Shown here: piece by piece, positions 2,462 to 20,295 of the stretch | How the letters are laid out: each line of letters starts with the position of its first letter | How positions within the stretch are numbered: the stretch's first letter is position 1 | Source: Pelosinus propionicus DSM 13327 | Lineage (GTDB): Bacteria; Bacillota; Negativicutes; DSM-13327 | DNA: 64,000 bases | Assembly (NCBI RefSeq): GCF_900114615.1 | Contig: NZ_FOTS01000027.1 | Span: forward strand, 1-64,000 | Reading direction: 5' to 3' | Notes under the pieces: generated by a model | The model's database searches: none | Told to the model about the DNA's origin: nothing | The model's input: only the letters and a program-made list of their open reading frames with translations | Made by a program: the position numbers and the translations under genes

Positions 2462-3265
2462 TTATTCGATAGAATTAGCCTTCTTGACAGCGGCAGTAAC
2501 CGATGTCATTAAAGCTGCTGCTAAGCCCTCCTGCTCAAGCGATTTTAATGCCTCAATCGTCACTCCTCCTGGAGATGTCATCTCATCAACCTTTACTGCC
2601 GGATGAGCACCGGTCACATCAAGTACCTGCGCTACGCCTAACATATTCTTAATAATAATGTTGCGTGCCTCCCTACGGCTAAAACCTACATATACGCCAG
2701 CGTTTATTAACCCCTCTACCGTTTTGTATATCCAAAGCGGACCTGAACAACTAAAGGCGGTAAAGGTATCGAACATATTTTCTGCGATATACATCGTCTG
2801 ACCTAATGCGTTTAGAATCGCTGTGACGACTTCCTTATCATTATCGTCAAGGTTAGCATTTACGCAAGCAGCACTATGACCATTGCCAGACTGAATAAGA
2901 GTATTAGGCATCACACGCAGTACTTTTTTATCACTGCCAACCTGACTCTCTAGGGTTGCAATTGTGACACCGGCGGCGATTGACAGTACGATCGTCTTTT
3001 CGTTAATAAGTTCCTTAAGCACCTTGGTAACGCTTGGTACTTGCGGTGGATTTACAGCTATAATAATCACATCCGCTTCCTTTATAGCCGCAGTTGCATC
3101 TGTAAGAGCAAAGACGCCATAGGTGCTGGACAGATATTCACAACGCGCTGGGAATAGCTCGCTTACTGTGATGTTTTTCGGAGTAGCTACCCCATTGTTA
3201 AGTAGTCCTCTCATTATACCTTCCGCCATGTTGCCGCCACCACAAAAAACAATTTTCTTATTCAT
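2462..3265 (-). CDS. proC: Pyrroline-5-carboxylate reductase
   Basis: This enzyme reduces 1-pyrroline-5-carboxylate to L-proline with NAD(P)H in the cytoplasm. The N-terminus carries the dinucleotide-binding loop FCGGGNMAEGI. The C-terminus carries the family signature MTSPGGVTIEALKSLEQ, part of the all-alpha dimer domain. Its 267 residues match the usual ProC length. It is the last gene of the ortA-ortB unit, 93 bp after ortB, and is followed by a terminator. In hydroxyproline-using clostridia a ProC reduces the product of the dehydratase HypD. Its place here may mean proline is made or handled alongside hydroxyproline, or that it removes a cyclic imine by-product. Family assignment is firm; the metabolic role in this cluster is inference. 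Confidence 0.93.
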   Translation of the reverse strand: MNKKIVFCGGGNMAEGIMRGLLNNGVATPKNITVSELFPARCEYLSSTYGVFALTDATAAIKEADVIIIAVNPPQVPSVTKVLKELINEKTIVLSIAAGVTIATLESQVGSDKKVLRVMPNTLIQSGNGHSAACVNANLDDNDKEVVTAILNALGQTMYIAENMFDTFTAFSCSGPLWIYKTVEGLINAGVYVGFSRREARNIIIKNMLGVAQVLDVTGAHPAVKVDEMTSPGGVTIEALKSLEQEGLAAALMTSVTAAVKKANSIE

Positions 3266-3358: not shown

Positions 3359-4774
3359 TTACTTTAATTCTAAAGTCCTTTTCACAAACTCTTCATTAGT
3401 CTTAGTTTCTTCTATTAAGAATCTCATGTCTTCTGCTGTTAAATCTTTTGGATCAACGCCGCTCTTCTTACAAGCCTTTTTGATCATTGACTGTCTGAAA
3501 CGATTAATATCAGCTTCCTGATGCTTGATATATCCAGGATTCTTTGGAAGTATAATGTTTTCACCTGGCTTATCTTCTTTTGCAGGATCACCAAACTTGA
3601 TTTCTATTCCATTTTCTCTCGCAAAAGTAAGCTGTGGCTGAATGTGTTTACCTGCTCCTGTGTATTCAGTTTCGCTGACTACGAGGACTGCATCTTCTGG
3701 AAGTTCCTGAGCCAATGAGAATGCTGCAGCTAATGCAGTATTTCCTGCCGGTCCTCTTTCGATACCTTCCAGGTTAGCCAGAGCTTCAGTCATGTACATA
3801 ACTTCCCCCTGGGTAATAGTTACATAACGATCCGTATAACGAAGAGTTCTTGTTGCCGCACGAGGAACGTCGGACAGATCAGGGTCGGTCGTATGAGGAA
3901 CAGCGAAACCAGTATGTCCTGTCGTACAAGACTTTCTATTGAACTGGGAATCAGAAGCCATGTGAAGACCCGTAAGATCAATAGCTGCAGCTACCATCTG
4001 CGTGTTCGCGCAGCCTGCTTTCATAATTCCACGGGCTGTTCCTGTAATCATGCCGCCCCCTGCAGTTGTGCAAACAACCATATCCGGATCTTTTCCCACA
4101 AATTCGCGGCACTGCATAGCAATTTCGTATCCGAGTGTTTCAATACCTGCTATACCGAACGGTGAATACAGAGAAGCGTTAAAATATCCTGTATCCTCCA
4201 TAATTGACAGAAATGAGTAGAATAATTCAGGCCCTACGGTGAGCTGAACTACTTCGGCACCGTATGCTTCACACGCTCTTGCTTTTTCAACGATTTCAGG
4301 CTGACCCACTCCTCTTGAGTCATAGCACTCCTGTACAATGATGCACTCTAATCCCTGCATAGCCGCCTGAGATGCCACTGCTGCACCATAATTGCCGGAA
4401 GTAGCTGCCATAACCCCCTTGTAGCCTAACTTCTTTGCGTGAGCAACTGCACAAGCCGCTCTTCTTGCCTTGAAGCTTCCGGAAGCATTAGCCGCTTCGT
4501 CTTTTGCAAAAATTCTCGCACCATATCCTGGTTTTGCATATTTTCTTGCAAGTTCGGTCAAGTTTCTTAGTTCCAGAAGCGGAGTATTACCAACACCGGT
4601 TCTAGATTGAATTTTTGTAATTTCATCTAATGTATAATTTGTAGCATTCATCAATGCTTCATAATCGAATGCCACTGAACCTGACTCGAATTCCTGATAG
4701 TCAAGTCCGAGTGCTGTCTTCATGATATCATTGGCTCTTCCCATTACGGAATCATAATCTTTTGCTAAAGCCAT
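3359..4774 (-). CDS. ortB: 2-amino-4-oxopentanoate thiolase, PLP-binding large subunit
   Basis: With OrtA this subunit cleaves 2-amino-4-oxopentanoate with CoA to alanine and acetyl-CoA, the last step of the clostridial ornithine pathway. It is a fold-type II PLP enzyme related to threonine synthase. The Schiff-base lysine is K102 in GSFKARR, a substrate loop TSGNYGAA lies near 124, and a glycine-rich phosphate loop is TTAGGGMITG. The 471-residue length fits OrtB of amino-acid fermenters. Its start overlaps the ortA stop by one base (TAATG), so translation is likely coupled. No ornithine aminomutase or diaminopentanoate dehydrogenase lies nearby, so here the substrate probably comes from hydroxyproline ring opening by the glycyl radical enzyme upstream. 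Confidence 0.9.
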   Translation of the reverse strand: MALAKDYDSVMGRANDIMKTALGLDYQEFESGSVAFDYEALMNATNYTLDEITKIQSRTGVGNTPLLELRNLTELARKYAKPGYGARIFAKDEAANASGSFKARRAACAVAHAKKLGYKGVMAATSGNYGAAVASQAAMQGLECIIVQECYDSRGVGQPEIVEKARACEAYGAEVVQLTVGPELFYSFLSIMEDTGYFNASLYSPFGIAGIETLGYEIAMQCREFVGKDPDMVVCTTAGGGMITGTARGIMKAGCANTQMVAAAIDLTGLHMASDSQFNRKSCTTGHTGFAVPHTTDPDLSDVPRAATRTLRYTDRYVTITQGEVMYMTEALANLEGIERGPAGNTALAAAFSLAQELPEDAVLVVSETEYTGAGKHIQPQLTFARENGIEIKFGDPAKEDKPGENIILPKNPGYIKHQEADINRFRQSMIKKACKKSGVDPKDLTAEDMRFLIEETKTNEEFVKRTLELK

Positions 4775-5076
4775 TATTTGTCACCTCCAAACATGATCTC
4801 TCTCAGCTGCCTGTCAATCTCTATGAATTCGGGTACAAACTTGCCATAACTGTGTGTATAGTAAGGTCCTTCTTCGATGAGAGTTCCCTTTACCATACGG
4901 TTAGCTGCCGTCTTTACTGTTACTTTCTCACCGATATTAGCGGATTCATCCTGCAGGAATCCTTTCGTCCACTGCTGAAGGTCACATTTCTGCGTATCTT
5001 CAGGAAGTCTGGCAGTTCTTTCTGCCGCCTTAAGTACTATTGAATGAATGCGCACCCAATCGCCTCTTTTAGCCAT
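4774..5076 (-). CDS. ortA: 2-amino-4-oxopentanoate thiolase, small subunit
   Basis: This small partner of OrtB has 100 residues, as expected for OrtA. It begins AKRGDWVRIHS and ends in a GPYYTHSYGKFVPEF segment typical of the family, with no other recognisable domain. It pairs with OrtB in the CoA-dependent cleavage of 2-amino-4-oxopentanoate. The gene sits 33 bp after the B12 mutase gene and overlaps ortB by one base, with an AGGAG-type ribosome site. I rely on size, the family-like sequence and strict pairing with ortB; the small subunit has no catalytic signature that I can point to. Confidence 0.87.
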   Translation of the reverse strand: MAKRGDWVRIHSIVLKAAERTARLPEDTQKCDLQQWTKGFLQDESANIGEKVTVKTAANRMVKGTLIEEGPYYTHSYGKFVPEFIEIDRQLREIMFGGDK

Positions 5077-5109: not shown

Positions 5110-6861
5110 CTATTTATATGAAGCAATAACATCTACGATTGTATCTACATTATTATCGGCGTTAATGCCCATTTCTCTGAGCATATCGGAGACATCAACC
5201 GGAATGTCGCTGCCGCCAACAGGCTCATTAAGGCGACCGCCCATCAGTACATGGATGCCCTCAAGATTTGCTTCCTTCAAACTTATCAAAAGGTCTTTGC
5301 CGAAGCTGTATGCCATGCCGTTATATGTGCCTAACGCAATCACATTGCTGCCTGTTTCAATAAGTGTATCGGCAATCTCCGCGATCGACACTGTTGTCCC
5401 AAGGTCAAATACGTTAGCACCGGCCTTTTTTATTACATTCTTTATTATTTCTTTACCGAATTCATGAACATCTGTTGAGCCCACAACAACATTCATGCCT
5501 GTCAATGGTCCCGTTTCTTCAAATTTTTGCCTGGAAATTACATCATCCTGAATCTTACTTATTGTCTGGATAATACTTGTCGGACGGATAGGCACTCTGC
5601 CCCTCATGGCATTTTTGTCACCTGCCCCGACACCAAATGCCACTTCAAGCTGTTCAGGACCAATAGCCTTAAGCACCCCCGTAATCTGGCCGGCATGATT
5701 AATATCTATACCCAAATCATCCAAAGCATTAATGACTCTTTCAAAGAAAATGTTTCCGCCTGTTACCAATATCTCAGCTTCGGAATTTATCTTTTCCCAA
5801 TTAATGAACTTCTCATAATAGGGGGCCTTTTCCATCATCATATCCACCGCACAATGCGCTTCTATCATTTCCTCTGCAGATGGTATTCTTATTGCTTCGG
5901 TCAAAGGTACGGGGGCAATCGCGTATCCACTAGGATATTTCATCTGGCAAATAATATCTGCCAGGGAATACGAACAAAGTGCTCCATAATTTCTCGATAT
6001 ATCCGTGCCATAGTCTATTGTATTGCCATTAATAAAAGAGCCGGGAGTACCATATTTATCAATCATCCCCATCGCCCTATTAAAGACGATACGAAGTACA
6101 GAATCACTGAATAAATTGCCATAGGTATGAGCCACTCTTCCTCCCAAAAGCTCTTCCGCTATATATCTTTCCAGCTTGGCCCATCCTACAAGGTTTGCAA
6201 CATCGTGGAACTGCGCACCATAACCATCATCTAAGTTGCAGTGCAGCACAGCACCCGCATCTTTAAATTCAGCCATTATCGCTATGGCCTTCATGTAATT
6301 TTCGGTACGATAAAGCTCTAGGTCGAGACCCGGATATTCATAAGTAAAATACTGAGCAAGGTTTCCAATGGCTGTAACACCAGCCCGAAGTCCACTAACT
6401 GTATTTTCCACTGAATTTAAAGAGCCGATCATATGATCCCCAAGGTGTGGCTGTACAGGTACAACCTGGCCGAGAGCATTCCATTCTTCCTGCGTCTGAA
6501 AAATAAGGCTGCCTCCTGCTTGGAATTTATTGCGATATTCTTTAGGCACACCCATGACCCAGTCCAGAGCCACGCCCAGACGGTCTATAAAAGAGCCTGC
6601 TCTTTCCAGCCCCTTGTATACTGTCTTAAAGCCTTGCTCCGTCGCCGACCAGGAGTTCCATCCAATGACAGAGTGCTTCATGAGCTTTCCGGCCTTTATC
6701 ATGTTGCGCTTATACTCTGCCTCGGATTTAACACCATGCTTTTTCATAAACAAGGTTTCTCCAATGGAAAACTCTGATGCAATTTTTTTTGCATCACCCA
6801 GAACGGACTGCATATCCGGCAATTCCTTCTCATTAAATCTTCTTTTTATTTGAATATCCAT
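5110..6861 (-). CDS. Adenosylcobalamin-dependent mutase, glutamate-mutase-like, with fused B12-binding domain
   Basis: The protein looks like glutamate (methylaspartate) mutase with the catalytic E and cobalamin-binding S parts in one chain of 583 residues; in glutamate mutase they are usually separate (about 480 and 137). Residues about 60-445 resemble the TIM-barrel E subunit. Residues about 455-583 form the cobalamin domain with the base-off motif DVHEFG (D464, H466, G469), then GTYNG and LMGGRLNE in place of the usual later loops. No PLP-binding insert like that of ornithine 4,5-aminomutase is visible. It is 14 bp behind a mutL gene, its expected reactivation partner, and directly precedes ortAB. 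The substrate is unknown to me: the described hydroxyproline C-N lyase route does not need a carbon-skeleton mutase. The ribosome site AAGGAG lies 8 nt before the ATG. Confidence 0.85.
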   Translation of the reverse strand: MDIQIKRRFNEKELPDMQSVLGDAKKIASEFSIGETLFMKKHGVKSEAEYKRNMIKAGKLMKHSVIGWNSWSATEQGFKTVYKGLERAGSFIDRLGVALDWVMGVPKEYRNKFQAGGSLIFQTQEEWNALGQVVPVQPHLGDHMIGSLNSVENTVSGLRAGVTAIGNLAQYFTYEYPGLDLELYRTENYMKAIAIMAEFKDAGAVLHCNLDDGYGAQFHDVANLVGWAKLERYIAEELLGGRVAHTYGNLFSDSVLRIVFNRAMGMIDKYGTPGSFINGNTIDYGTDISRNYGALCSYSLADIICQMKYPSGYAIAPVPLTEAIRIPSAEEMIEAHCAVDMMMEKAPYYEKFINWEKINSEAEILVTGGNIFFERVINALDDLGIDINHAGQITGVLKAIGPEQLEVAFGVGAGDKNAMRGRVPIRPTSIIQTISKIQDDVISRQKFEETGPLTGMNVVVGSTDVHEFGKEIIKNVIKKAGANVFDLGTTVSIAEIADTLIETGSNVIALGTYNGMAYSFGKDLLISLKEANLEGIHVLMGGRLNEPVGGSDIPVDVSDMLREMGINADNNVDTIVDVIASYK

Positions 6862-6875
6862 ACCAAATGCTCCTT

Positions 6876-8279
6876 TTAAGTCAATCTAAGGCTTCTCTTC
6901 ATTATGGAAATGGCTGCATCTTCATCATATTTACGAAGAAGACCTGCGGCAAAAAAAACATAGTCATGATCCATCAAGGTACTAATCCTTTCGGGAAGTA
7001 ATATATGACCCGTTTCCGATGCATCTGCTCTCACATTTTCCAATATGGGGAAAGGATTTTCTTCATTAACGATAATTCCACCAGTTCCTATAATTGTTTT
7101 TATTTCCGTAAGGTTTTTACCACGCTGTACTAAACAGCAGCCATCATTAAATTCTTTTGCCACATAACCCGCATGACGTCTGGCAGAAATGTTCACTGCA
7201 CTGCATGCAATCTGATAGTCTATGATCTTTTCCCTGCTGTCATCAGCTATATAATCTTTACAGATGATGCGTTTCTCTATTGCTTCCTTAAGAAAGGTTT
7301 CAGATATACCACACCTTTCGGCAAGATTTTTTTCTCCTAATTCTCTTGTAAGACATATAGAGGATTCTCTCATTCCCATATCTCCTTCTACCGTCCTTTT
7401 GGCAAAAGGCTCAGGTGACCCTATACATTTTGCACCTTGAAAGCTTTTATTTTCGATATATGAATAAATATCTGTCGTTGCTCCGCCAATATCAGCCAGC
7501 ATAAAAGAACCGATACCTATTTCATTTTTTGTACCACGGCACAAAAGCGCTCCTGCCGAAAGCACTGCTGCAGGTGTCGGAATGATAGGTGCATCCATTT
7601 CTTTTTGCACAGAGCCTATACCCTTCATATTGGTGATTCTGTTCATAAACAAATTTCGAATTATGTCCGCTGTAGGCTCTATATTTAAAGAGCCTATAAC
7701 AGGCATTATATTTTCAGCTAAAAAACATTCTTTACCTTTGTTCATAAATATCTTTCTTATCTCTTGAGCCACAAAGGAGTTACCTGCATAGATTACGGGA
7801 ATTGCTAATTTGCTTTCGCTTAATACTGTTGCATTGTGGAGCAAACCATGCGTATTTCCACCTTCATATCCACCACACAAAAGGAGTATCTCAGCCCCTG
7901 CATCTTCTATTTCCTCCAGATCTTTTCCGGAAATAAGGCCGTTCATACTGAATACTATTTTTGCACCAGCGCTGAAACTGGCATTTCTGCCAGCTTCAAC
8001 ACTTACAGCCTTAGTTAGTCCCACTACAGCCATTCTCAGGCCACCTGCGGCACTGCTTGTAGCAAGTTTTAACGCAGATTTAAAATTCTCATGACCAATT
8101 GCAGTCCTTGCAGCATCAAAACACTGGCAAAGACCGATTGCCGCATCAGTATGCACCGTAGAAGGAAACTTATCGGTGGCAACAACTTTGCGTTCCCCTA
8201 TATTAACACACACCATCTTCGTATAGGTGCTTCCAAAATCCACAAGAATAGCAAATTTCAGAGTTAATCCTCTCTCCAT
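6876..8279 (-). CDS. MutL/GlmL-type reactivating ATPase for a B12-dependent mutase
   Basis: This is an actin-fold ATPase of the family encoded beside glutamate mutase and ornithine aminomutase genes, thought to repair or reload the cobalamin enzyme. Visible signatures are the phosphate-1 loop DFGSTYTK near the N-terminus, SSAAGGLRM at about 75, ADIGGATTDIYS (phosphate-2 loop) at about 262, and RTVEGDMGMR. It is 467 residues long, normal for the family. The gene lies 14 bp upstream of the fused mutase gene, so the two form a pair. It is unrelated to the DNA mismatch protein MutL. The start follows an AGGAGAGAG ribosome site; a start a few codons later cannot be excluded. Confidence 0.88.
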   Translation of the reverse strand: MERGLTLKFAILVDFGSTYTKMVCVNIGERKVVATDKFPSTVHTDAAIGLCQCFDAARTAIGHENFKSALKLATSSAAGGLRMAVVGLTKAVSVEAGRNASFSAGAKIVFSMNGLISGKDLEEIEDAGAEILLLCGGYEGGNTHGLLHNATVLSESKLAIPVIYAGNSFVAQEIRKIFMNKGKECFLAENIMPVIGSLNIEPTADIIRNLFMNRITNMKGIGSVQKEMDAPIIPTPAAVLSAGALLCRGTKNEIGIGSFMLADIGGATTDIYSYIENKSFQGAKCIGSPEPFAKRTVEGDMGMRESSICLTRELGEKNLAERCGISETFLKEAIEKRIICKDYIADDSREKIIDYQIACSAVNISARRHAGYVAKEFNDGCCLVQRGKNLTEIKTIIGTGGIIVNEENPFPILENVRADASETGHILLPERISTLMDHDYVFFAAGLLRKYDEDAAISIMKRSLRLT

Positions 8280-8444: not shown

Positions 8445-9590
8445 TTATTCAGCAATATCGTCCATTGAAGTATTCACGGATGCTTTTTTACATTTGTAAG
8501 GGAAAGCATCCTTGTTGATAAACTCCTTGTAGATAATAAAGCCGATTAAGGCAATCGCAATATAACCGGAAATCGGGTACAGGATATTTGCCAGCTGGTC
8601 AAAAGGCAGCAGCGTACCAAAGAACATACCGACTACGGTTAAACAAACAGCAAGCAGATTGAATTTCTTAGTTTTGTCTTCAGCAAATTTTCTAGTAACA
8701 AGCAACAATAAGGAAGCAACCGCCGAATAAATACACAAAACAATTATCGGTGCAAAAACCTTAGTTAAAAAAGGAGCAACCGATTTGGCAATGGCCAATG
8801 TAGGCACTTGCTGACCTCTAATAAGATCCAAATAAACCACTTCTGCGATAGTCAGCAAGCTAAGTACGACACAAGTTGCGAAGACACCTAAGATCGCTCC
8901 CATTCTTGCTTCTTTTACACTCTGACATACTTGCCCGCTGACAATAAAGAATGTAATGCCATAGATAAGACCCAATAATGCCCATAAGACGGCTGACCAT
9001 GGCCAGATACTAGTTATCTGCTTGAACCCTGCTTGCGAGACAAGCACACTGTTAGTAGCTAGCACGTCCGGATTTCCCGCAATAGTACCTAAGGCATAAA
9101 AACCAATGATAGATAGAAATACAATTTTAATCGGTCCGATAACACCGATGACATCAAGCAGTTTTTGAATACCTAATATGGCTGTTAAACAGGCTAAGAT
9201 AGCGACAAAATAAGTACCTGTACTTGTCGAAACCCCGTAATATTGGTGAATTGTCGCACCAGCACCTGCCATCATAACAACATAACTGCAATAGCTTAAT
9301 ACTACCGTAAACCACAAATATACCTGCCCGATATGTTTACCGCAATAATATTCAAAAACATCATAAGGATTATCAAATTGCTCTCTTTGTCCTGTCCCAT
9401 ATAAGACATATCCCATAAACATTAAAAGCAACATATAGAGTATATTTATTGCCATACCTTTAAAAGCTCCGTGTGTTGCTGCAAATTGCATAGCTTCTTG
9501 TCCGGTTGCTACCCCAGAACCAATCCAAAATGCACAGAATGCTCCCGCAATTATACATACTTTTTTCCAACTGACCGCTTGGTTTTCCAT
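8445..9590 (-). CDS. YkvI-family membrane transporter, probable amino-acid or hydroxyproline uptake
   Basis: This is a polytopic inner-membrane protein of 381 residues with about ten or eleven hydrophobic segments, beginning WKKVCIIAGAFCAFWIGSG. The glycine-rich first helix with a following TGQE motif is the pattern of the YkvI group (APC superfamily, COG3949), whose members are annotated only as putative transporters. It stands between the radical lyase gene and mutL, so import of the island's substrate is the obvious guess, but specificity cannot be read from the sequence. The charged C-terminal tail (about 360-381) is cytoplasmic. A 278-bp gap precedes it and a 165-bp gap follows, so it may be transcribed partly on its own. 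Confidence 0.75.
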   Translation of the reverse strand: MENQAVSWKKVCIIAGAFCAFWIGSGVATGQEAMQFAATHGAFKGMAINILYMLLLMFMGYVLYGTGQREQFDNPYDVFEYYCGKHIGQVYLWFTVVLSYCSYVVMMAGAGATIHQYYGVSTSTGTYFVAILACLTAILGIQKLLDVIGVIGPIKIVFLSIIGFYALGTIAGNPDVLATNSVLVSQAGFKQITSIWPWSAVLWALLGLIYGITFFIVSGQVCQSVKEARMGAILGVFATCVVLSLLTIAEVVYLDLIRGQQVPTLAIAKSVAPFLTKVFAPIIVLCIYSAVASLLLLVTRKFAEDKTKKFNLLAVCLTVVGMFFGTLLPFDQLANILYPISGYIAIALIGFIIYKEFINKDAFPYKCKKASVNTSMDDIAE

Positions 9591-9868: not shown

Positions 9869-12223
9869 CTATAAGGTTTGCTGAAGGGTTCTAGCAATAA
9901 TGTTATCCTGAATATCCTTTTCAAGATCAACGAAGTAAGCAGAGTAGCCTGCTACACGAACCAAAATATTACGATGGGACTGCGGATCCTTTTGAGCGGC
10001 ACGAAGTGTTTCATCATCGACTATATTCACCTGAATGTGCTGCCCCCTCTGATTGAAGAAAGTGCGGACAACAGTCTCTAATATATCTAATCCCTTTTCT
10101 CCTTTAGTGATAGCAGGGTCAAAACGTTGATTAACCAGCACACCGCTCTGTGGAATTAATGGATCAAGTGCAGATATGGAATTTACAACTGCAGTAGGTC
10201 CGTTTACGTCCATTCCAATCATAGGTGAAGCATTGTCTGCAAGGTCCGTAAAAGCAAGTCTTCCATCCGGCGTTGCTCCGATCAAGCGTCCCAGTACAAC
10301 GTTATAAGATTGAGAAGCGATAACAGTAGTGAACTGACCATCACGACCATCTCTGTACTGTACTACCTGCTCATTGCAAAGATCAGCAAGCCAATGTGCA
10401 TATTCATCTACTGAATCAATATTGTTGCCGTACTTTGGTGCCTTGTTGATCAAAAGCTGACGCATATTTTCCTTGCCCTCGAAGTTAGTCTCCAAAAGCT
10501 TCACAAGTTCAGACATCGTTAAGTATTTCTTATCAAATACGCACTCTTCAATTGCAGCCAGCGAGTCAGCAACATTAGCAACGCCTGATATAGCAACAGC
10601 GGAATAGCGATGTTCTGCCCCCTTACGTTGAAGAATTCTCCCCTTCTCGATGCACCCATAGGTGAAGCATGAGGCAGTTACAGTAGGCAAAGCATGTGCA
10701 TGACACGATATGATTCTGTTAAAAAGTACGATAAACTTCTTCATGAAGAACGCTTGCTGCGTCTCATATGCATCCATGAGTTGCTTAACGGAAGTAAATG
10801 TTGTAACGTCACCGGTACGTGGTCCGATTTGAACCTTGGTAACAGGATCCACTCCGTTATTCATAGTGATTTCGAATACCTTAATTGGATTGAAATATCC
10901 GGCATTGGACTGGAAGTCAGTAATTCCGGGAACGCTTGGCTCGATGCATCCGCAAATACCCCAGTCTCTGGCTTCTTTTAGCGTGTGACCTAATGTCAAA
11001 AGATGGGAAATATTTGTGCTATCATTAAAGAAAGCAGGATGGCTTCCACCCTTTCTGGCTACGGCCAGGGCCAAACGGAAGGTATCTTGATTTACGCCAT
11101 CGTGGTACCGGAATGAAACGCAAGGCTCTTTCGTTTGCAAATCATCCATGCAGTGAAGTATGGCGTTTGTAAGTTCGTTGCAGCCGTCCTTTCCGTCAGG
11201 AAGTACACCGCCAATCATCATATGGATCCAAAGCGGGCACCCTGGATAAGCCTGTGATTCACGATTGGTTCGCAGCACCCAAAGTTCTCCGAATTTAAGC
11301 TTAAACTCATGAATAACATCGGCAATAAAGGCTTCACTTACACCATTTTCTAAATCCTTCTTATAGAAAGGGTACATGTACTGATCGAAACGACCGATGC
11401 AGTGATCCCCGCCGTTTACTTCCATCATTAATGCAAGATGTGTAAACCATACGAACTGTGCAGCCTGCTGAAAGTTCTGCGGTGGATTCTCAGGAACCAC
11501 ACGGCAGTTTTCCGCCATAGCAAGGAGCTGTGCCTTTCTTTCGCTATCTGAGCACTCCCCAGCCATTTTTTCTGCTAAGTCAGCATATCGGTGAGCAAAT
11601 TTGATAATTGCTTCCATTACAATGATCATGCTCTGCCATGTAATCTGCTTTTCCATGGTGTCGATATCCATATCTTCCAACGCAGCGATGTTTTCCTTGC
11701 ACTTATCGATATAGTAACGGTAACCTCTGTGAACCATATCGTAATAGGCAGGAGCATGGTTCATAGTGGACAGGTTGGATACACCCTTGGTAAAGATGCC
11801 GATGTTAATCATGGTATTCATATCGGCATCAACCAAAGCCCCGGTCAGATCTCCAAAGGTTCTGCCCTTCCAGGCTTCAACAATTGTTCTTAGCTCGTCT
11901 TTTTCGCCAGGAATGAACTTGAAATGATCTGAGCTTCTCGTATCAATCGTTTCCAGATCATCATATAACCATGCAGTTACTTCGGGATAAATAGGGACCG
12001 CGTGCAAGCGGGATGCCAAATGTCCGGCTAAAACAGAATCATCATCGATGAAAATTTTCTTATTTTCTAGTACATATTGAAATGATTTTGCCCTTCTAAG
12101 TATGAATGGCTCCATGGATGGCTCGCTATAGAATTTTGTTATTAAGCGTGCACGGTCCAGACAAATTTCAGCAGGCGTATTGCGTACCTTTTCACTTAGT
12201 CTAAATATTCTTTCCGAAATCAT
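9869..12223 (-). CDS. hplG: Glycyl radical enzyme, probable trans-4-hydroxy-D-proline C-N lyase (HplG type)
   Basis: This is a 784-residue glycyl radical eliminase. The thiyl cysteine is C426 and the catalytic acid E428 in GICGCIEP; the radical glycine is G759 in RVAGYS, 25 residues from the end. GCxEP followed by a short loop is the eliminase type (glycerol, propanediol and choline enzymes), whereas the dehydratase HypD, as I recall it, reads GCVET. Removing H from C4 of 4-hydroxyproline and cleaving C5-N would give 2-amino-4-oxopentanoate, exactly the OrtAB substrate. Epimerase, alanine racemase and alanine dehydrogenase genes nearby complete that route. The gene overlaps its activase gene by four bases (ATGA). 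The alternative is HypD-like dehydration, which the proC gene would suit. Family is certain; substrate rests mainly on context. Confidence 0.85.
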   Translation of the reverse strand: MISERIFRLSEKVRNTPAEICLDRARLITKFYSEPSMEPFILRRAKSFQYVLENKKIFIDDDSVLAGHLASRLHAVPIYPEVTAWLYDDLETIDTRSSDHFKFIPGEKDELRTIVEAWKGRTFGDLTGALVDADMNTMINIGIFTKGVSNLSTMNHAPAYYDMVHRGYRYYIDKCKENIAALEDMDIDTMEKQITWQSMIIVMEAIIKFAHRYADLAEKMAGECSDSERKAQLLAMAENCRVVPENPPQNFQQAAQFVWFTHLALMMEVNGGDHCIGRFDQYMYPFYKKDLENGVSEAFIADVIHEFKLKFGELWVLRTNRESQAYPGCPLWIHMMIGGVLPDGKDGCNELTNAILHCMDDLQTKEPCVSFRYHDGVNQDTFRLALAVARKGGSHPAFFNDSTNISHLLTLGHTLKEARDWGICGCIEPSVPGITDFQSNAGYFNPIKVFEITMNNGVDPVTKVQIGPRTGDVTTFTSVKQLMDAYETQQAFFMKKFIVLFNRIISCHAHALPTVTASCFTYGCIEKGRILQRKGAEHRYSAVAISGVANVADSLAAIEECVFDKKYLTMSELVKLLETNFEGKENMRQLLINKAPKYGNNIDSVDEYAHWLADLCNEQVVQYRDGRDGQFTTVIASQSYNVVLGRLIGATPDGRLAFTDLADNASPMIGMDVNGPTAVVNSISALDPLIPQSGVLVNQRFDPAITKGEKGLDILETVVRTFFNQRGQHIQVNIVDDETLRAAQKDPQSHRNILVRVAGYSAYFVDLEKDIQDNIIARTLQQTL

Positions 12224-13140
12224 TTAATCACTTCCCTCTCATTATTTTTCATCCAATAACATTCTTTTTTATATTTCTGAAGAATCTGATTAGCACATTT
12301 GACCAAATCATTCATTTCTTCATCTTCAGGTACTATAACACCCTTAAGGGGATACGGTTTTCCCAAAGCAGTATACTTCGGTTCACCGAAGTTGTGGTAT
12401 TGTAGAAGCTCATACTCCTTAACGGTCGGTATTGTGGAAACAAACTCTGCAATACCTTTAATATTTTCCTGAGAATTCGTGTATCCCGGAATAATTGGTG
12501 TTCTTATCGTGATCGGAGTGCCAAATTCCGAAATGCGTCTAATATTTTCTAAAATCAACTCATTACTCATTCCCGTTAAAGCTTTATGTGTTTCTGGATC
12601 GATATGCTTGATATCCATAAACATAGCATCTATATACGGCAGTGCTTCCTTAAATTCTTCAAATTGACCGTAGCCACAGCTTTCGACAACGACATTGATC
12701 CCATTATCATGGCATTTTTTTGCAATTTCCTTTAAATCTTTCGCATGTGTCAGCGGCTCTCCTCCGGAAAAAGTTACTCCTCCTCCGTATAGTGAGTAAA
12801 ACGGACGATCCTTTTCTATTTCCCTATAAAGCTCTTCAACGAAATAATCCCTTCCTACCACACGCTTAGATTCAGCATAACAGCAATCCGTACACTTAAA
12901 GCAATTTGTACAGCGGCTTCTATCTATTCTATAATCGTCTAAAATTGCCGCTTCCGGACAGACCCTCTTGCACTCACCGCAACCTATACATCTTACCGGT
13001 GACTCCATAATCTCCTGCCGATACGATTGGGATTCCGGATTGGAACACCACAAACACCTTAAGGGACAGCCTTTAAAAAATACAAGTGTTCTTAAACCGG
13101 TTCCGTCATGAATGGAGCACTTTTGGATGTTAAATATCAT
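12220..13140 (-). CDS. hplH: Glycyl radical enzyme activase, radical SAM
   Basis: This enzyme installs the glycyl radical on the adjacent lyase using S-adenosylmethionine. The radical SAM cluster ligands are C25, C29 and C32 in GCPLRCLWC. Two extra 4Fe-4S ferredoxin-like motifs follow at C51-C61 (CIGCGECKRVC) and C77-C87 (CTNCFKCTDCC), as in activases of eliminase-type enzymes. The SAM-binding TFSGGEP lies near residue 122. I chose the ATG at 13140 because an upstream in-frame extension would include the ribosome site AGGAGG itself, 10 nt before this ATG; a TTG one codon earlier is also possible. It is the first gene after a strong sigma-54 promoter and is translationally coupled to the lyase gene. 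Confidence 0.93.
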   Translation of the reverse strand: MIFNIQKCSIHDGTGLRTLVFFKGCPLRCLWCSNPESQSYRQEIMESPVRCIGCGECKRVCPEAAILDDYRIDRSRCTNCFKCTDCCYAESKRVVGRDYFVEELYREIEKDRPFYSLYGGGVTFSGGEPLTHAKDLKEIAKKCHDNGINVVVESCGYGQFEEFKEALPYIDAMFMDIKHIDPETHKALTGMSNELILENIRRISEFGTPITIRTPIIPGYTNSQENIKGIAEFVSTIPTVKEYELLQYHNFGEPKYTALGKPYPLKGVIVPEDEEMNDLVKCANQILQKYKKECYWMKNNEREVIK

Positions 13141-13175
13141 CAATAGACCGCCTCCTTCCTTTTTCAATAAATATA

Positions 13176-13192
13176 TGCAAAATACGTGCCAA
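13176..13192 (-). promoter_or_regulatory. Sigma-54 (-24/-12) promoter of the hydroxyproline operon
   Basis: The minus strand reads TTGGCACGTATTTTGCA, which matches the -24/-12 consensus, with GG and GC exactly 12 bases apart. Transcription would start near 13165, about 25 nt before the activase start codon and just upstream of its ribosome site. A sigma-54 promoter needs an ATPase activator bound upstream; none is encoded in this window. Confidence 0.85.
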
Positions 13193-13328
13193 GTCAAAAT
13201 GAGATTGAATGAGGAGGCAATTCTGGACTAAAGCAGGGATAATTGATTCCAAAAGCTCCGGAAACGATCTTCAATTATTAGTTATAAGCACGACTTATCA
13301 AGAACAAAATAGATTCTCGAGTAGTTTT

Positions 13329-13493: not shown

Positions 13494-14609
13494 CTATGCT
13501 AATACATCTGCAACCGGCGTATAAGCAAGTCCATGAGCTTCCGCAACACCTTGGAAGGTTACTTTTCCATCAAATACATTCAATCCTTTTGCCAGACCAG
13601 CATCGTCTTTCAGAGCCTGTTTCCATCCTTTTCCAGCTATTTGCAAAGCGTAGTCAAGGGTAGCATTGGTTAAAGCAAACGTAGAAGTGCGGGCTACAGC
13701 GCCAGGTATGTTAGCAACCGAGTAATGGACAACACCATGTTTTACATAGGTAGGTTCACTGTGAGTAGTAGCACGGTCAACAGTTTCTACCGAGCCGCCC
13801 TGGTCAATGGCAACATCAACGATTACTGAACCAGCTTCCATCGTCTTAACCATTTCTTCAGTAATCAGTTTAGGAGCTTTTTTACCAGGAATCAGGACAG
13901 AACCAATCAACAGGTCAGCTTCCTTTGCCCATGCGGCAATATTGTAGCTGTTGGACATAACAGTGTTCACGCGACCGCCAAAAATATCATCAAGATAGGC
14001 CAAGCGCGCCAAGGATCTGTCCAGAACGGTTACGCGTGCGCCCATACCTAAGGCCATTTTAGCCGCATTGGTACCAACGACACCGCCGCCGACGATCACT
14101 ACTTGGGCCGATTCAACACCCGGTACGCCGCCAAGTAGAATACCTTTACCACCGTTAGGTTTTTCCAAAGAAGTAGCGCCTACCTGCACTGCCATACGAC
14201 CGGCCACTTCACTCATAGGAGTTAAGAGTGGCAAAGTGTGATTCCGCTCAATGGTTTCGTAAGCGATGCCAATTACTTTTTTAGCTAAGAGTGCTTCGGT
14301 CAATTCTGGTTCAGGAGCCAGATGGAGATAGGTGAAGAGAATCTGTCCTTCATGAAATAGATCATATTCCGCCGCAAGGGGTTCCTTGACTTTCATAAGC
14401 ATTTCTGCTTGGTCAAACAACTCCTTTTTATCGGCAATAATTTGCGCGCCTGCTTCTTTATAGCTTTCATTCGAAAAACCGCTGCCCACCCCGGCATTTT
14501 CTTCTATTAACACTGTATGTCCAGCTTTTTTTAGGGCTAATGTGCCTGCTGGGGTAAGAGCTACGCGATTTTCATTGTTTTTGATTTCTTTTGCTACACC
14601 AATAATCAT
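13494..14609 (-). CDS. ald: Alanine dehydrogenase
   Basis: The enzyme oxidises L-alanine to pyruvate and ammonia with NAD+, or runs in reverse. With the start at 14609 it has 371 residues, the standard length. Key residues fall at the positions known for this family: R15 in ENRVALTP, K75 in KVKEP and H96 in LHLAPEP. The NAD-binding fold begins at about 170 with [14 protein letters not shown]. The ribosome site AAGGAGG lies in front of this ATG; a longer reading frame upstream runs through that site and is unlikely. It forms a pair with alr (69 bp gap) and would feed the alanine made by OrtAB into pyruvate, recovering NADH. Confidence 0.95.
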
Positions 14610-14678
14610 GTTTTTTTGCCTCCTTAATTTTAACAGCACCGATAAGTATTTTATTTGGCACGTTCTTTACAGACAGTA

Positions 14679-15806
14679 TCATTTGTTACGATACAGTCTG
14701 GGTACACGTTTACCGACGGTACAGACAACTTCATAGCTGATTGTACCCAGTTTAACAGCCACCTCATCAGCTGAAAGCACTGTGTCAGCAAATAAGACAG
14801 CGGTATCTCCCGGTCTTACGTCGGGAATTCCTGTAACATCAGCCATGCACTGATCCATGCAAATTCTGCCGATAAGCGGCGCTCGTTGTCCTCGGATGAG
14901 GATATCTGCTTTACCGGAAAGTAATCTTGTCCACCCATCAGCATAGCCAATCGGTAAAACAGCAACTGTTCCCGCCCGTGAAGTTATATAACTCCGACCA
15001 TAGCTGATACTAGTTCCGGCAGCAACTTCCCGCACCTGCGTTATTTGGCATTTCAGTGCCATTGCCGGTTTTAAATGAATGCATTGCGTCACTTCCGGCG
15101 ACGGCCATAAGCCATAGAGAATAATTCCCGGACGCACCATATCCAGATGAGTTTCTGGCATTTCAAGTGTTGCGGCGCTGTTCGCTATATGGCGGATGGG
15201 TATATGAAATCCTTGTGCTTCGACGGCGGCTATTGCCTGGCTAAAGTGTGCCATTTGTTCCCGGCAATAGGTTTTATCCGCGCTGTCGGCAGTAGCAAAA
15301 TGCGAAAAAATACCCTCTATTTCAATACCCGCCAAAGCCGCTACCGCCGGAATGAATACACCCGCATCACTGGGTCGTATCCCTATACGCCCCATGCCCG
15401 TATCGATCTTCACATGAACTTTTGCAATTTTTCCTGCTTCTACAGCTGCTGCCGATAAAGTTCTAGCTGCCTCCATTGAATAGATCGTCTGCGTAATATC
15501 ATGCGCAACCACTAACGTAGCTTGAGCAGTCGGTGTAAAACCCAGAACAAGAATAGGTGCAGTAATTCCGGCGCTTCGAAGTTCCAGCGCTTCATTTAAA
15601 ATAGCCACAGCCAGATAGTCTGCCCCAGCGGCCAGACTTGCATTAGCCACGGCTATAGCACCGTGACCGTAACCATCAGCCTTCACAACCGCGCAAAATT
15701 TAACTGTTGGCTTTAACAGTGTCTTAATTGCTGATACGTTGTGCTTGATTGCGGCTACATCCACCTCCGCCCATACAGGACGCGTCAATTCTTCGTCTGA
15801 CTCCAT
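14679..15806 (-). CDS. alr: Alanine racemase
   Basis: This is a PLP enzyme that interconverts L- and D-alanine. The Schiff-base lysine is K42 in VVKADGYGHGA. The second catalytic tyrosine lies in SYGRSY at about 265, and the C-terminal domain carries RICMDQCMADVT. Its 375 residues are typical. All alanine racemases can serve the cell wall, but here the gene is paired with ald and enclosed by the hydroxyproline genes. Thiolysis of the product of trans-4-hydroxy-D-proline would yield D-alanine, so Alr followed by Ald is a logical route to pyruvate. It has a strong AAGGAGG ribosome site and, upstream, a decayed copy of the sigma-54 regulatory block. Confidence 0.95.
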   Translation of the reverse strand: MESDEELTRPVWAEVDVAAIKHNVSAIKTLLKPTVKFCAVVKADGYGHGAIAVANASLAAGADYLAVAILNEALELRSAGITAPILVLGFTPTAQATLVVAHDITQTIYSMEAARTLSAAAVEAGKIAKVHVKIDTGMGRIGIRPSDAGVFIPAVAALAGIEIEGIFSHFATADSADKTYCREQMAHFSQAIAAVEAQGFHIPIRHIANSAATLEMPETHLDMVRPGIILYGLWPSPEVTQCIHLKPAMALKCQITQVREVAAGTSISYGRSYITSRAGTVAVLPIGYADGWTRLLSGKADILIRGQRAPLIGRICMDQCMADVTGIPDVRPGDTAVLFADTVLSADEVAVKLGTISYEVVCTVGKRVPRLYRNK

Positions 15807-16436: not shown

Positions 16437-17447
16437 ATGAAGGCTAGAAAACTATTTAGAACGATTGAGACACATACATTGGGACAGCCTACACGTAATG
16501 TTGTAAGTGGCTTTCGCAATATTCCGGGAAAAACCATGGCAGAAAAGTACTCCTACATGAAGGAGCATGAGGATTGGTTTCGCAAGCTATTATCTTATGA
16601 GCCTCGCGGTAGTGAAATCATGTCAGGAACTCTGATTACAGAGCCATGCACACCGGGAACAGATATTGGAGTTTTGTACTTTGAAGCAAGCGGTTGGATG
16701 CCTATGTGCGGTCACGACACCATTGGCGTGTCGGTGGCCTTGATTGAAGCTGGTCTGGTTGACGTTAAGGAGCCGATTACCTTTATCAATCTTGATACAG
16801 CCGCTGGCGTAGTAACCGTTGAAGCTACAGTAGAGGATGGAGTCGTAAAAGAGGTTTCCTTCCTTAATGCACCAGCACTGGTATTAAAACGTAATGTTGC
16901 AGTGAATACGAGAGATTTTGGAAAGCTTACCCTGGATATTTCCTGGGGCGGCAACGTATATGCAATCCTGCCGGTTGAACGTTTCGGCTTAACAATCGAG
17001 CCTCATAACTGTGGCAAACTGATCGAGATTGCACAGTCAATTGCAAAAGATATCAACGAACAGGTGGTAATTTGCCATCCGGAGCTTTCGTTCGCAGATT
17101 GCGTAACGCACGTGGAATTCTCAGGACCTCCAAAGAGCCCAGAGGCGGATATCCAAAACTGCGTAGTAGCTTTACCAAAGGTTGTAGACCGTTCCCCTTG
17201 CGGTACTGGTACCTCCGCTAAAGCAGCACTTTTATTTGACGAGGGTAAGCTTAAGGTGGGCGACAGCTTTGTTCACGAGAGTGTCATTGGTTCACTGTTT
17301 AAGTGTGAAATCGTCGAAAAAACTACAGTTGGTGGAATTACTGCTATTCGTCCAAGAATTACAGGCAATGCTTGTGTAATTGGCTTTGCTACTTGGATCT
17401 TAGATCCTAAGGATCCGTTCCCAGAAGGCTTTGTATTAGATTATTAA
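16437..17447 (+). CDS. Proline racemase family protein, probable 4-hydroxyproline 2-epimerase
   Basis: This is a cofactor-free epimerase of 336 residues acting by two cysteines. Both are present: C91 in MPMCGHDTIG and C255 in DRSPCGTGTSAK. That makes it an epimerase or racemase rather than a trans-3-hydroxyproline dehydratase, in which one cysteine is replaced. It resembles PrdF-type proline racemase throughout. In this setting the likely reaction is cis-4-hydroxy-L-proline to trans-4-hydroxy-D-proline, giving the radical lyase its substrate. Proline racemisation cannot be excluded. It is the only rightward gene of the island, with its own sigma-54 promoter, and ends before a strong hairpin. 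The ribosome site is AAAGGAA. Confidence 0.88.
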   Translation: MKARKLFRTIETHTLGQPTRNVVSGFRNIPGKTMAEKYSYMKEHEDWFRKLLSYEPRGSEIMSGTLITEPCTPGTDIGVLYFEASGWMPMCGHDTIGVSVALIEAGLVDVKEPITFINLDTAAGVVTVEATVEDGVVKEVSFLNAPALVLKRNVAVNTRDFGKLTLDISWGGNVYAILPVERFGLTIEPHNCGKLIEIAQSIAKDINEQVVICHPELSFADCVTHVEFSGPPKSPEADIQNCVVALPKVVDRSPCGTGTSAKAALLFDEGKLKVGDSFVHESVIGSLFKCEIVEKTTVGGITAIRPRITGNACVIGFATWILDPKDPFPEGFVLDY

Positions 17448-18168: not shown

Positions 18169-19998
18169 TTATTCTACCGTTACTGACTTCGCCAAGTTTC
18201 TTGGTTTATCTACGTCGCAGCCACGAGTTACGGCAGCGTAGTAAGCCAACAATTGAAGAGGAAGAACAGCGAGGATTGGTGCTAAGAATTTATCAGCTTT
18301 CGGAATGAAAATAGTGTGATCTACATATTTGTTGATTTGTTCATCACCCTGCTGAGCAATACCAATGACAACGGCATCACGAGCTTTGACTTCTTTGATG
18401 TTGCTGAGTGTTTTTTCGTATACATCATGCTGCGTAGCTAGAGCGATAACGGGTACGCCTTCAATGATGAGAGCTAATGTACCATGTTTCAATTCTCCGG
18501 CGGCATAGGCTTCTGCATGAATATAGGAAATTTCTTTCAGCTTCAATGCGCCTTCTAAGGCTACCGCATAATCTAAAGAACGGCCGATAAAGAATACATC
18601 TTCGTTAAAACCATATTTTTGTGCAAAGGTTTTAATGGATTCCACATCTTCTAGTATTTCATGCAATTGGGCTGGGAGATTACGCAAACCAGAGATTAGC
18701 TCACGACTGCGTTCTGCTGAAATGGTATCCCGAAGTCCAGCAATGTAGATCGCTAGCATGCTCATAAGAACAAGTTGAGTCGTATATGCTTTGGTGGAAG
18801 CTACTGCAATCTCTGGACCGGCCCAAGTATAGATAACTTGATCCGCTTCCCGAGAAATCGAAGAACCAACAACATTGGTAATTGCCAATGTCTTTGCTCC
18901 AAGACGTTTTGCTTCTTTCAAAGCCGCTAAGGTGTCTAATGTTTCACCAGATTGGCTCACCACAATGGCTAAGGTATTTTCATCCACTAAAGGAGAGCGG
19001 TAGCGGAATTCAGACGCTACGTCTACTTCAACAGGAATGCGAGACAAGGATTCAAGGTAATATTTGCCTACAAGACCAGCATTATAAGCAGTACCGCAAG
19101 CTACAACGACTATTTTCTTGATCGCTGCCATTTCTTGTTTGGTCCATTTTAGTTCATCCAAGATGATATGACTATCATCTTTTGCCAAACGGCTGGACAT
19201 GGTTTCCCGAATCGCTCTTGGCTGTTCATAGATTTCTTTGATCATGAAATGTTCATAGCCGCCTTTTTCAGCAGCTTCTGCGTCCCAGTGTACTTCAAAT
19301 ACTTTTTTCGTAATGGGCACTCCTTGACGATTCATAACCCATACAGAATCTTTAGTGACAACTGCCAATTCTCCATCACTTAAGATATAGGTTCTACGAG
19401 TGCGATTAATGATCGCTGGAATGTCAGATGCGATAAAATTCTCGCCTTCTCCTAAACCAATGACCAATGGATTGTCTTGTTTCGTGCAGATAATTTTATC
19501 TGGCTCATGTTTTGTCATAAATACTAGGGCATAGGAGCCTTCAATTTCCGATAACACTTGCTTTACTGCCGCTTCAAAGTCACCTTTGTAGTATTCTTCT
19601 ACCAAGTGAGCTACTACTTCCGTATCTGTCTCAGAAGCAAAAACATGACCTTTTGCAATGAGTTTTTCTTTTAAGTGCATGTAGTTTTCAATAATACCAT
19701 TATGCACTACAACAAAATCTCCTGAGCAGTCTGTATGAGGATGGGAGTTTACATCAGAAGGACGACCATGAGTTGCCCAGCGAGTATGTCCAATACCTAA
19801 GTTTCCAACAAGTTTATTGCTTTCTAATTTTTTTTCTAAATTTGCCAAGCGGCCTACACTTTTTTCTACATGAATCTGTGTTCCATCGAATACAGCTATT
19901 CCTGCAGAATCATAACCCCGGTATTCCAGTTTACTTAAACCATCCATCAAAAATGCTGAGGCCTGTTCAGGGCCTATATAGCCAACGATACCACACAT
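18169..19998 (-). CDS. glmS: Glutamine--fructose-6-phosphate aminotransferase (isomerising)
   Basis: It makes glucosamine-6-phosphate from fructose-6-phosphate and glutamine, the entry to UDP-GlcNAc and the cell wall. The start at 19998 gives 609 residues and places the nucleophile C2 directly after Met (MCGIVGYIG), as required for the Ntn glutaminase. The glutaminase domain fills about residues 2-220. Two SIS sugar-isomerase domains follow, with VSQSGETLDTLAAL and GRSLDYAVALEGALKLKE, and the C-terminus DKPRNLAKSVTVE is canonical. An AGGAGG ribosome site precedes this ATG; an upstream in-frame ATG would put the cysteine inside the chain. Expression is controlled by the glmS ribozyme just upstream. 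Confidence 0.98.
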   Translation of the reverse strand: MCGIVGYIGPEQASAFLMDGLSKLEYRGYDSAGIAVFDGTQIHVEKSVGRLANLEKKLESNKLVGNLGIGHTRWATHGRPSDVNSHPHTDCSGDFVVVHNGIIENYMHLKEKLIAKGHVFASETDTEVVAHLVEEYYKGDFEAAVKQVLSEIEGSYALVFMTKHEPDKIICTKQDNPLVIGLGEGENFIASDIPAIINRTRRTYILSDGELAVVTKDSVWVMNRQGVPITKKVFEVHWDAEAAEKGGYEHFMIKEIYEQPRAIRETMSSRLAKDDSHIILDELKWTKQEMAAIKKIVVVACGTAYNAGLVGKYYLESLSRIPVEVDVASEFRYRSPLVDENTLAIVVSQSGETLDTLAALKEAKRLGAKTLAITNVVGSSISREADQVIYTWAGPEIAVASTKAYTTQLVLMSMLAIYIAGLRDTISAERSRELISGLRNLPAQLHEILEDVESIKTFAQKYGFNEDVFFIGRSLDYAVALEGALKLKEISYIHAEAYAAGELKHGTLALIIEGVPVIALATQHDVYEKTLSNIKEVKARDAVVIGIAQQGDEQINKYVDHTIFIPKADKFLAPILAVLPLQLLAYYAAVTRGCDVDKPRNLAKSVTVE

Positions 19999-20044
19999 AT
20001 GGTAATTCCTCCTAAAATTCAAATACAATTCAAATCATTCTGTC

Positions 20045-20234
20045 AATCTGCCCCAGTCGCTTTGTCTTGCAAGTTACCTTGCAGTTTTGTCGCTGCTTAA
20101 CGGCCGCAGAGTGGCCGAGAGGTATCCGCTGAAAAATCTCGATAAACCTCTTCCTCGTCTGCTTAACGTCAACACGCCCTTATACAGGCTGCCACCGAGA
20201 TGTGGTACTATGTCACGCAAGCTCCAGCGCTATA
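20045..20234 (-). ncRNA. glmS ribozyme (glucosamine-6-phosphate-activated self-cleaving riboswitch)
   Basis: On the minus strand the leader of glmS reads AATTATA|GCGCTGGAGC, the conserved cleavage site, with the cut between 20231 and 20230. The core GACGAGGAAGAGGTTTATCG and CAGCGGATACCTCTCGG (about 20140-20100) agrees with the glmS consensus, and a P4 domain ends in GACTGGGGCAG. Binding of glucosamine-6-phosphate triggers cleavage and mRNA loss, giving feedback control of glmS. Its position directly before glmS makes the call secure; the exact 3' edge is approximate. Confidence 0.95.
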
Positions 20235-20295
20235 ATTTACCATTTGAGAGATCTTCTAAAATATAGTTTCCACCAATCTTCTTTGCTTTATCCAT
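20230..20295 (-). CDS. 21-codon upstream ORF ending in the glmS ribozyme cleavage site
   Basis: An ATG at 20295 follows a very strong ribosome site (GGGGGTGAGAA, 4-nt spacing). The frame reads MDKAKKIGGNY then ILEDLSNGKL and stops at TAG (20232-20230). That stop codon is cut by the ribozyme: cleavage falls between its A and G. No similarity to a known protein is evident. It could be a translated leader peptide, in which case ribosomes would reach the ribozyme 5' end, or a gene relic. The excellent ribosome site favours translation; function is unknown. Confidence 0.5.
   Translation of the reverse strand: MDKAKKIGGNYILEDLSNGKL

Follow-up and report, generated by a model that had tools for sequence, protein, structure and literature searches.

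A single-chain B12 enzyme with its own MutL partner in a hydroxyproline island of Pelosinus propionicus: candidate roles in proline-ring metabolism

Gene content of the hydroxyproline island

The first 64,000 nucleotides of contig NZ_FOTS01000027.1 from Pelosinus propionicus DSM 13327 (hereafter, the window) harbor on the minus strand, at positions 5110..6861, a gene with an ATG start coding for a 583 aa protein in which a predicted TIM barrel (residues ~1-450) is fused to a GlmS-like B12 domain (residues ~455-583); this adenosylcobalamin (AdoCbl)-type enzyme, referred to here as the fused mutase, is the subject of the present work. Located 14 bp upstream on the same strand (6876..8279) is the gene for its partner, a MutL/GlmL-family reactivase of 467 aa that matches PF13941 over its full length (430 bits over 450 positions) and belongs to the GlmL family. 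Directly downstream lie the genes for the small and large subunits of 2-amino-4-oxopentanoate (AKP) thiolase, OrtA (4774..5076, minus strand; NF040739, 127 bits, cut-off 70) and OrtB (3359..4774, minus strand; NF040741, 797 bits, cut-off 550), and the co-directional run is closed by ProC, a pyrroline-5-carboxylate reductase (2462..3265, minus strand; TIGR00112, 222 bits, cut-off 197).

The run continues in the other direction with a transporter of 381 aa (8445..9590, minus strand), which had no match in Pfam or NCBIfam and whose family also adjoins mutase genes at L025, L048, L049, L055 and L062 (L-numbers designate loci and G-numbers genomes compared in this analysis, G000 being the window genome and G389 Levilactobacillus cerevisiae). 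Next come the glycyl radical enzyme HplG, a trans-4-hydroxy-D-proline C-N lyase (9869..12223, minus strand; 1160 bits to PDB 7vua over residues 1-783), its radical SAM activating enzyme (12220..13197, minus strand; TIGR02494, 334 bits), alanine dehydrogenase (Ald; 13494..14639, minus strand), associated with the AKP cleavage product, and alanine racemase (Alr; 14679..15806, minus strand), the last two named from reading the sequence with no profile scan. Thus, the minus-strand order is Alr, Ald, HplG activase, HplG, transporter, MutL, fused mutase, OrtA, OrtB and ProC. Upstream and divergent from this run (16437..17447, plus strand) is a HypE-like, 4-hydroxyproline 2-epimerase-type member of the proline racemase/hydroxyproline epimerase family (ProRac), which keeps both catalytic cysteines as a Cys-Cys pair and carries Ser at site 1, where proline racemases carry Phe; according to the residue rule that separates hydroxyproline epimerases from proline racemases at this site (PMC4364671), the protein is of the hydroxyproline-epimerase type. 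Farther along, an ordinary glmS gene (18169-20028) is preceded by a glmS ribozyme (20044-20242, minus strand).

The HplG route reportedly leads from cis-4-hydroxy-L-proline to trans-4-hydroxy-D-proline, then to AKP, and finally to D-alanine and acetyl-CoA; as published, this pathway of HplG, OrtAB and an epimerase is said to require no B12 step, and the fused mutase, its MutL and ProC are superfluous to it. The window genome also carries a true HypD, the glycyl radical trans-4-hydroxy-L-proline dehydratase, on contig 29 (3227-5602; L027; 1486 bits), with its catalytic residues kept and an activase alongside. To our knowledge, the known anaerobic entry points for hydroxyproline are these two glycyl radical enzymes, and, judging from gene content, the bacterium seems to use both routes, with HypD and HplG encoded on separate contigs.

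Architecture of the fused mutase and its separation from known families

The initial annotation had read a cobalamin motif DVHEFG at residues 464-469, and the motif is present as described (D464-V-H466-E-F-G469), with D464 and H466 invariant and G469 nearly so among 26 diverse homologues. The C-terminal B12 domain (last 125 residues) is closest to GlmS, with matches to PF02310 (E=9.5e-7) and to the NCBIfam methylaspartate mutase S model NF002612 (E=1.8e-12); the score of 47 bits against a cut-off of 110 for the latter indicates that the protein is not an equivalog. For residues 1-450, neither sequence searches nor searches with E-domain profiles built from 19 or 26 homologues gave a match in Pfam, NCBIfam or the PDB, and the kinship of this domain was found by structure comparison only. 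An AlphaFold model of the fused chain (pLDDT 86.6, pTM 0.86) resembled methylmalonyl-CoA mutase, ornithine aminomutase and GlmE in whole-chain Foldseek searches, the top matches being all AdoCbl mutases; the barrel alone retrieved glutamate mutase E first (1cb7_B; E=2.7e-10, TM 0.57/0.53, 14% identity) and lysine 5,6-aminomutase next (E=6.8e-6). As modeled, a barrel and a base-off/His-on B12 domain in one chain correspond to the predicted architecture of an AdoCbl class-I enzyme.

Residue-level comparison with GlmE was attempted in alignments with strands 4-8 in register, which lie at the edge of reliability. There, GlmE Glu330 has an invariant counterpart, E322, while Glu171 and Lys326 are apparently not kept, two of the three alignments placing Gly166 of the fused mutase opposite Glu171. 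Strands 1-3, which hold the three arginines of the GlmE arginine claw, could not be reliably aligned. Residues H63, H139, N167, H207, N209, D211, H245, N280 and R325 of the fused mutase are conserved throughout the ProC-linked clades.

The fused mutase shares with the GlmES and GlmL system a GlmS-like DxHxxG B12 domain, the E-type barrel fold and a MutL/GlmL partner. However, it is an E-then-S single chain with other gene partners and an E domain of 14% identity, which gave no match to Met_asp_mut_E (PF06368) in Pfam at E<=0.001 and reached a probability of only 0.2-0.3% against GlmE in hhalign profile-profile comparison. Consequently, the description of the protein as glutamate-mutase-like, combining E and S parts in a single polypeptide, applies to the predicted fold and architecture but not to the family. 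Regarding the D-ornithine 4,5-aminomutase OraSE and Or-4, the common traits are a MutL-family partner, an alignable B12 Rossmann domain (hhalign 92%) and the link to OrtAB; in contrast, OraE and OraS measure ~733 and 139 aa, OraE is alignable at the B12 domain only, no counterpart to the remainder of OraE is seen in the fused mutase, and no OraS lies beside it. The methylmalonyl-CoA mutase family displays the same whole-chain fold, with the barrel followed by the B12 domain in one chain, but identity is 11-15%, the partner is MutL instead of a MeaB-type chaperone, no Pfam or NCBIfam profile for the methylmalonyl-CoA mutase domain matched the fused mutase, and IcmF was matched by its B12 domain only.

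The gene content of the window genome is in line with this separation. Complete operons for both MutL-served systems occur elsewhere, namely GlmS-GlmL-GlmE-methylaspartate ammonia-lyase on contig 79 (L088, 53000-62000) and OrtB-OraS-OraE-MutL on contig 84 (L087, 7000-22000), some of the names having been assigned by sequence reading; the genuine GlmE scores 768 bits with Met_asp_mut_E. This agrees with the view that the fused mutase is neither a characterised glutamate mutase nor an ornithine aminomutase. The genome carries exactly three MutL genes, placed beside the fused mutase, GlmE and OraE, respectively, and the fused enzyme is the third MutL-served mutase-fold enzyme of this bacterium. 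The sole MutL of L. cerevisiae (G389), and likewise that of G1254, lies beside the fused mutase, and both genomes lack GlmE. Current annotations name the family members 'cobalamin-dependent protein' or 'hypothetical', and literature on HplG, OrtAB, B12 and hydroxyproline offered no description of the family, with the reservation that the HplG paper, outside this search, may draw the gene. The family is likewise absent from Pfam and NCBIfam, so that the expectation of this being the part of the window most likely to be undescribed holds. Taken together, the fused mutase is very probably a radical enzyme of the AdoCbl type that has a MutL of its own and stands apart from every characterised family.

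Distribution of the family and its gene neighbours

Fused mutases were detected in 3 of 380 genomes of the window's class, 10 of 297 genomes of the Emergencia order, and 4 of 391 and 1 of 201 genomes of two other groups; 20 further loci came from a species-genome collection, and eight rhizobial plasmid records carried a full-length homologue with 33-36% identity. The family is therefore rare, yet it occurs in several phyla, among bacteria of both gut and soil; nothing was found in the phage records searched. Plasmids also bear mutase remnants, in Rhizobium lentis (NZ_CP071455.1, 546561-547247; 39% of the length) and R. gallicum (NZ_CP092345.1, 35234-35329; 6%), and at L020 (Tissierella sp. P1) frameshifts break both mutase and MutL, which look like sequencing errors since the neighbouring genes are intact. 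In the tree of fused mutases, the ProC-linked Firmicute sequences and the rhizobial ones form separate clades, and a third, distant set is group B (L026, L050-L054; 25-30% identity), in which a hydantoinase-A-like ATPase of ~560-670 aa takes the place of MutL; group B may represent a different B12 enzyme served by a novel reactivase, and some of its loci have an aldehyde dehydrogenase and an EamA transporter nearby. Emergencia timonensis, whose loci are L007, L015, L055, L064, L092 and L093, encodes four fused mutases in one gut genome. The same genome carries eight HplG-like glycyl radical enzymes with 58-77% identity.

Gene neighbours were counted at 28 loci with at least 35% identity, window included and rhizobia counted apart; some contigs are short, which makes the absences soft. 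ProC was in view at 14 of the 28 loci, ProRac at 11, and HplG and/or OrtAB at seven, the window and six relatives sharing the HplG island and most relatives having no HplG in view. The window, L005, L006, L007 and L020 have ortAB immediately behind the mutase gene. The HplG/OrtAB pair was not in view at the remaining 21 loci, eight of which showed ProC and four ProRac. With an assumed, generous background of 2% per locus, the naive probability of finding ProC at 14 of 28 is 5e-17, a figure weakened by shared ancestry. The order TauE transporter-ProC-ProRac-GntR-MutL-mutase was observed at L018 and L023 (L. cerevisiae and Pelethocola), two bacteria whose entire genomes lack a HypD/HplG-class enzyme. 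At L012, L014 and L016, only a sodium symporter accompanies the MutL-mutase pair, and other loci have a transporter of the window type. At L064 of Emergencia, two MttB-superfamily methyltransferases and a BCCT (betaine) transporter flank a mutase-ProC-ProRac unit, an arrangement that suggests (hydroxy)proline betaine demethylation as a source of substrate.

The rhizobial loci show a related association in a different setting. In Phyllobacterium zundukense, a GntR-ProC-mutase unit lies divergently to a complete cluster for aerobic hydroxyproline breakdown that includes an ABC transporter, a DapA-like protein, an FAD oxidoreductase, an aldehyde dehydrogenase and a Ser-Cys racemase; a Ser-Cys member of the proline racemase superfamily has been shown to be a 4-hydroxyproline epimerase (4HypE; PMC4113996). 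ProC lies 1-7 kb from the mutase in Neorhizobium and Shinella, and neither OrtAB nor a glycyl radical enzyme was found near the rhizobial homologues. The P. zundukense ProC scores above the NF005063 cut-off and has no BLAST-detectable similarity to the window ProC; overall, rhizobial and Firmicute ProCs gave no match or 21-24% identity, and being nearly unrelated, they suggest that ProC was recruited independently in rhizobia.

A third context is given by L022, L061 and L062, where mutase relatives adjoin a 4-hydroxybutyryl-CoA dehydratase with its Cys/His iron-sulfur ligands kept; L061 and L062 also have an aminotransferase and a 2-oxoacid:ferredoxin oxidoreductase, L061 a glutamate dehydrogenase and L022 a thiolase. 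L049, considered a locus of this type from gene size, was rejected as the protein is unrelated. The arrangement looks like a fermentative pathway, so far undescribed, that makes crotonyl-CoA from a five-carbon amino acid. Such a gene set suits a C5 amino acid oxygenated at C5, which glutamate semialdehyde fits after reduction and AKP does not. A DUF362 protein is present at the three loci, together in part with a D-2-hydroxyacid dehydrogenase and with a glycyl radical enzyme that shares 42% identity with HplG.

Candidate function and competing readings

The recurrence of ProC and ProRac as neighbours points to the proline ring and delta1-pyrroline-5-carboxylate (P5C), rather than to AKP. We consider it probable that the fused mutase acts on a proline-ring substrate within hydroxyproline catabolism. 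Tentatively, and with the substrate, product, chemistry and B12 form all being inferred, we propose that it may be an AdoCbl-dependent dehydratase of a hydroxyproline isomer that forms P5C, that is, a B12 counterpart of HypD. In such a scheme, uptake and the epimerase would supply an amino acid with a proline ring, most probably one of the 4-hydroxyproline stereoisomers; the 5'-deoxyadenosyl radical would abstract a hydrogen at C5 and water would depart from C4, while MutL would keep the AdoCbl radical enzyme active. The product P5C, in equilibrium with glutamate semialdehyde, would be reduced by ProC to proline, and HplG would in parallel direct another stereoisomer to AKP and OrtAB. HypD yields P5C for ProC in a similar genomic setting, but it is an unrelated protein with another cofactor. 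Somewhat more doubtful is the wider claim that this is the first B12 enzyme acting on the proline ring, a P5C-forming AdoCbl dehydratase on a glutamate-mutase-type fold and a third class of MutL client.

Several observations weigh against this proposal. We know of no eliminase on this fold, which is familiar to us only from carbon-skeleton and amino mutases, and the closest fold to the modeled barrel is that of a carbon-skeleton mutase. The window genome already has HypD, which was above cut-off in five of the 18 mutase-bearing genomes examined, so where both occur the fused mutase would need a different isomer. Neither ProC nor ProRac was in view at 12 of the 28 loci, and the racemases of L018 and L023 look like proline racemases, with Phe at site 1. 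Moreover, ProC is not exclusive to the mutase and may be a general marker of proline metabolism: among five HplG clusters with no mutase nearby, L090-L092 lack ProC and L093 and L094 have it (3/5 vs 2/5), the latter two in genomes that carry a fused mutase elsewhere, and a hydroxyproline cluster of Shinella (L096) has ProC and no mutase, one of S. meliloti (L095) having neither.

The strongest competitor, which we regard as unlikely on balance, is a carbon-skeleton mutase of the glutamate mutase type, or a PLP-free amine migration, with a C5 or proline-related amino acid as substrate and with a product later used through ProC, OrtAB or a transaminase. The resemblance of the E domain to GlmE and lysine 5,6-aminomutase, that of the B12 domain to GlmS, and a MutL partner like those of glutamate mutase and ornithine aminomutase all argue for it; however, of the three GlmE residues Glu171, Lys326 and Glu330, only Glu330 is matched in alignments at the edge of reliability, Glu171 and Lys326 apparently not being kept, and no chemically sensible rearrangement joining the recurrent partners was found. 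A 1,2-shift from AKP to glutamate semialdehyde by the mutase was dropped as energetically poor and because the mutase is present at loci with no AKP-forming enzyme in view.

That the enzyme is a C-N lyase using B12 to achieve what HplG does, the opening of a hydroxyproline isomer to AKP for OrtAB, seems improbable. Glycerol dehydratase exists in B12 and glycyl-radical versions and provides a precedent for such a pair, and the seven loci with HplG and/or OrtAB, five with ortAB directly downstream, are consistent with it; nevertheless, OrtAB is out of view in most relatives and in all rhizobial ones, and AKP leaves no role for ProC or 4-hydroxybutyryl-CoA dehydratase. We give similarly little credence to an isomerase that moves the hydroxyl group of hydroxyproline or alters its stereochemistry (for example, by a 3-OH/4-OH shift or by C4 inversion), supplying HplG, HypD or the epimerase: the recurrence with epimerases and several HplG-like enzymes, and the up to four paralogues in E. 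timonensis, would suit it, but ProC, 4-hydroxybutyryl-CoA dehydratase and the loci reduced to transporter, MutL and mutase (L012, L014, L016) would be left unexplained.

The initial annotation had coupled the fused mutase to AKP metabolism, as a B12 step supplying a second substrate to OrtAB or handling an OrtAB by-product. The direct adjacency to ortAB in the window clade favors this reading, which is nonetheless very improbable, as the HplG/OrtAB pair is out of view at three quarters of the loci (21/28), neither occurs near the rhizobial homologues, and HplG-OrtAB clusters exist without the mutase. This pattern comes close to the outcome that the initial annotation had itself named as refuting, a co-occurrence unrelated to ortAB and hplG, although the window clade does share the island, and OrtAB was probably the wrong place to seek its partner. 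Finally, that the fused mutase is the genome's glutamate mutase, as its GlmS-like B12 domain and GlmL-family partner might suggest, is hardly credible given the real GlmE, GlmS, GlmL and methylaspartate ammonia-lyase encoded elsewhere and the failed PF06368 and hhalign comparisons.

Collagen and plant cell walls contain hydroxyproline as one of their major amino acids. If the dehydratase proposal is correct, a B12 entry point would explain how bacteria that lack the glycyl radical enzymes, such as a beer Levilactobacillus and aerobic rhizobia, could use hydroxyproline or regenerate NAD(P) with it, and would link this ability to the availability of cobalamin. The AdoCbl enzymes served by MutL would gain a further family, possibly with a reaction type new to the glutamate-mutase fold, spanning gut anaerobes, a beer lactobacillus and aerobic rhizobia.

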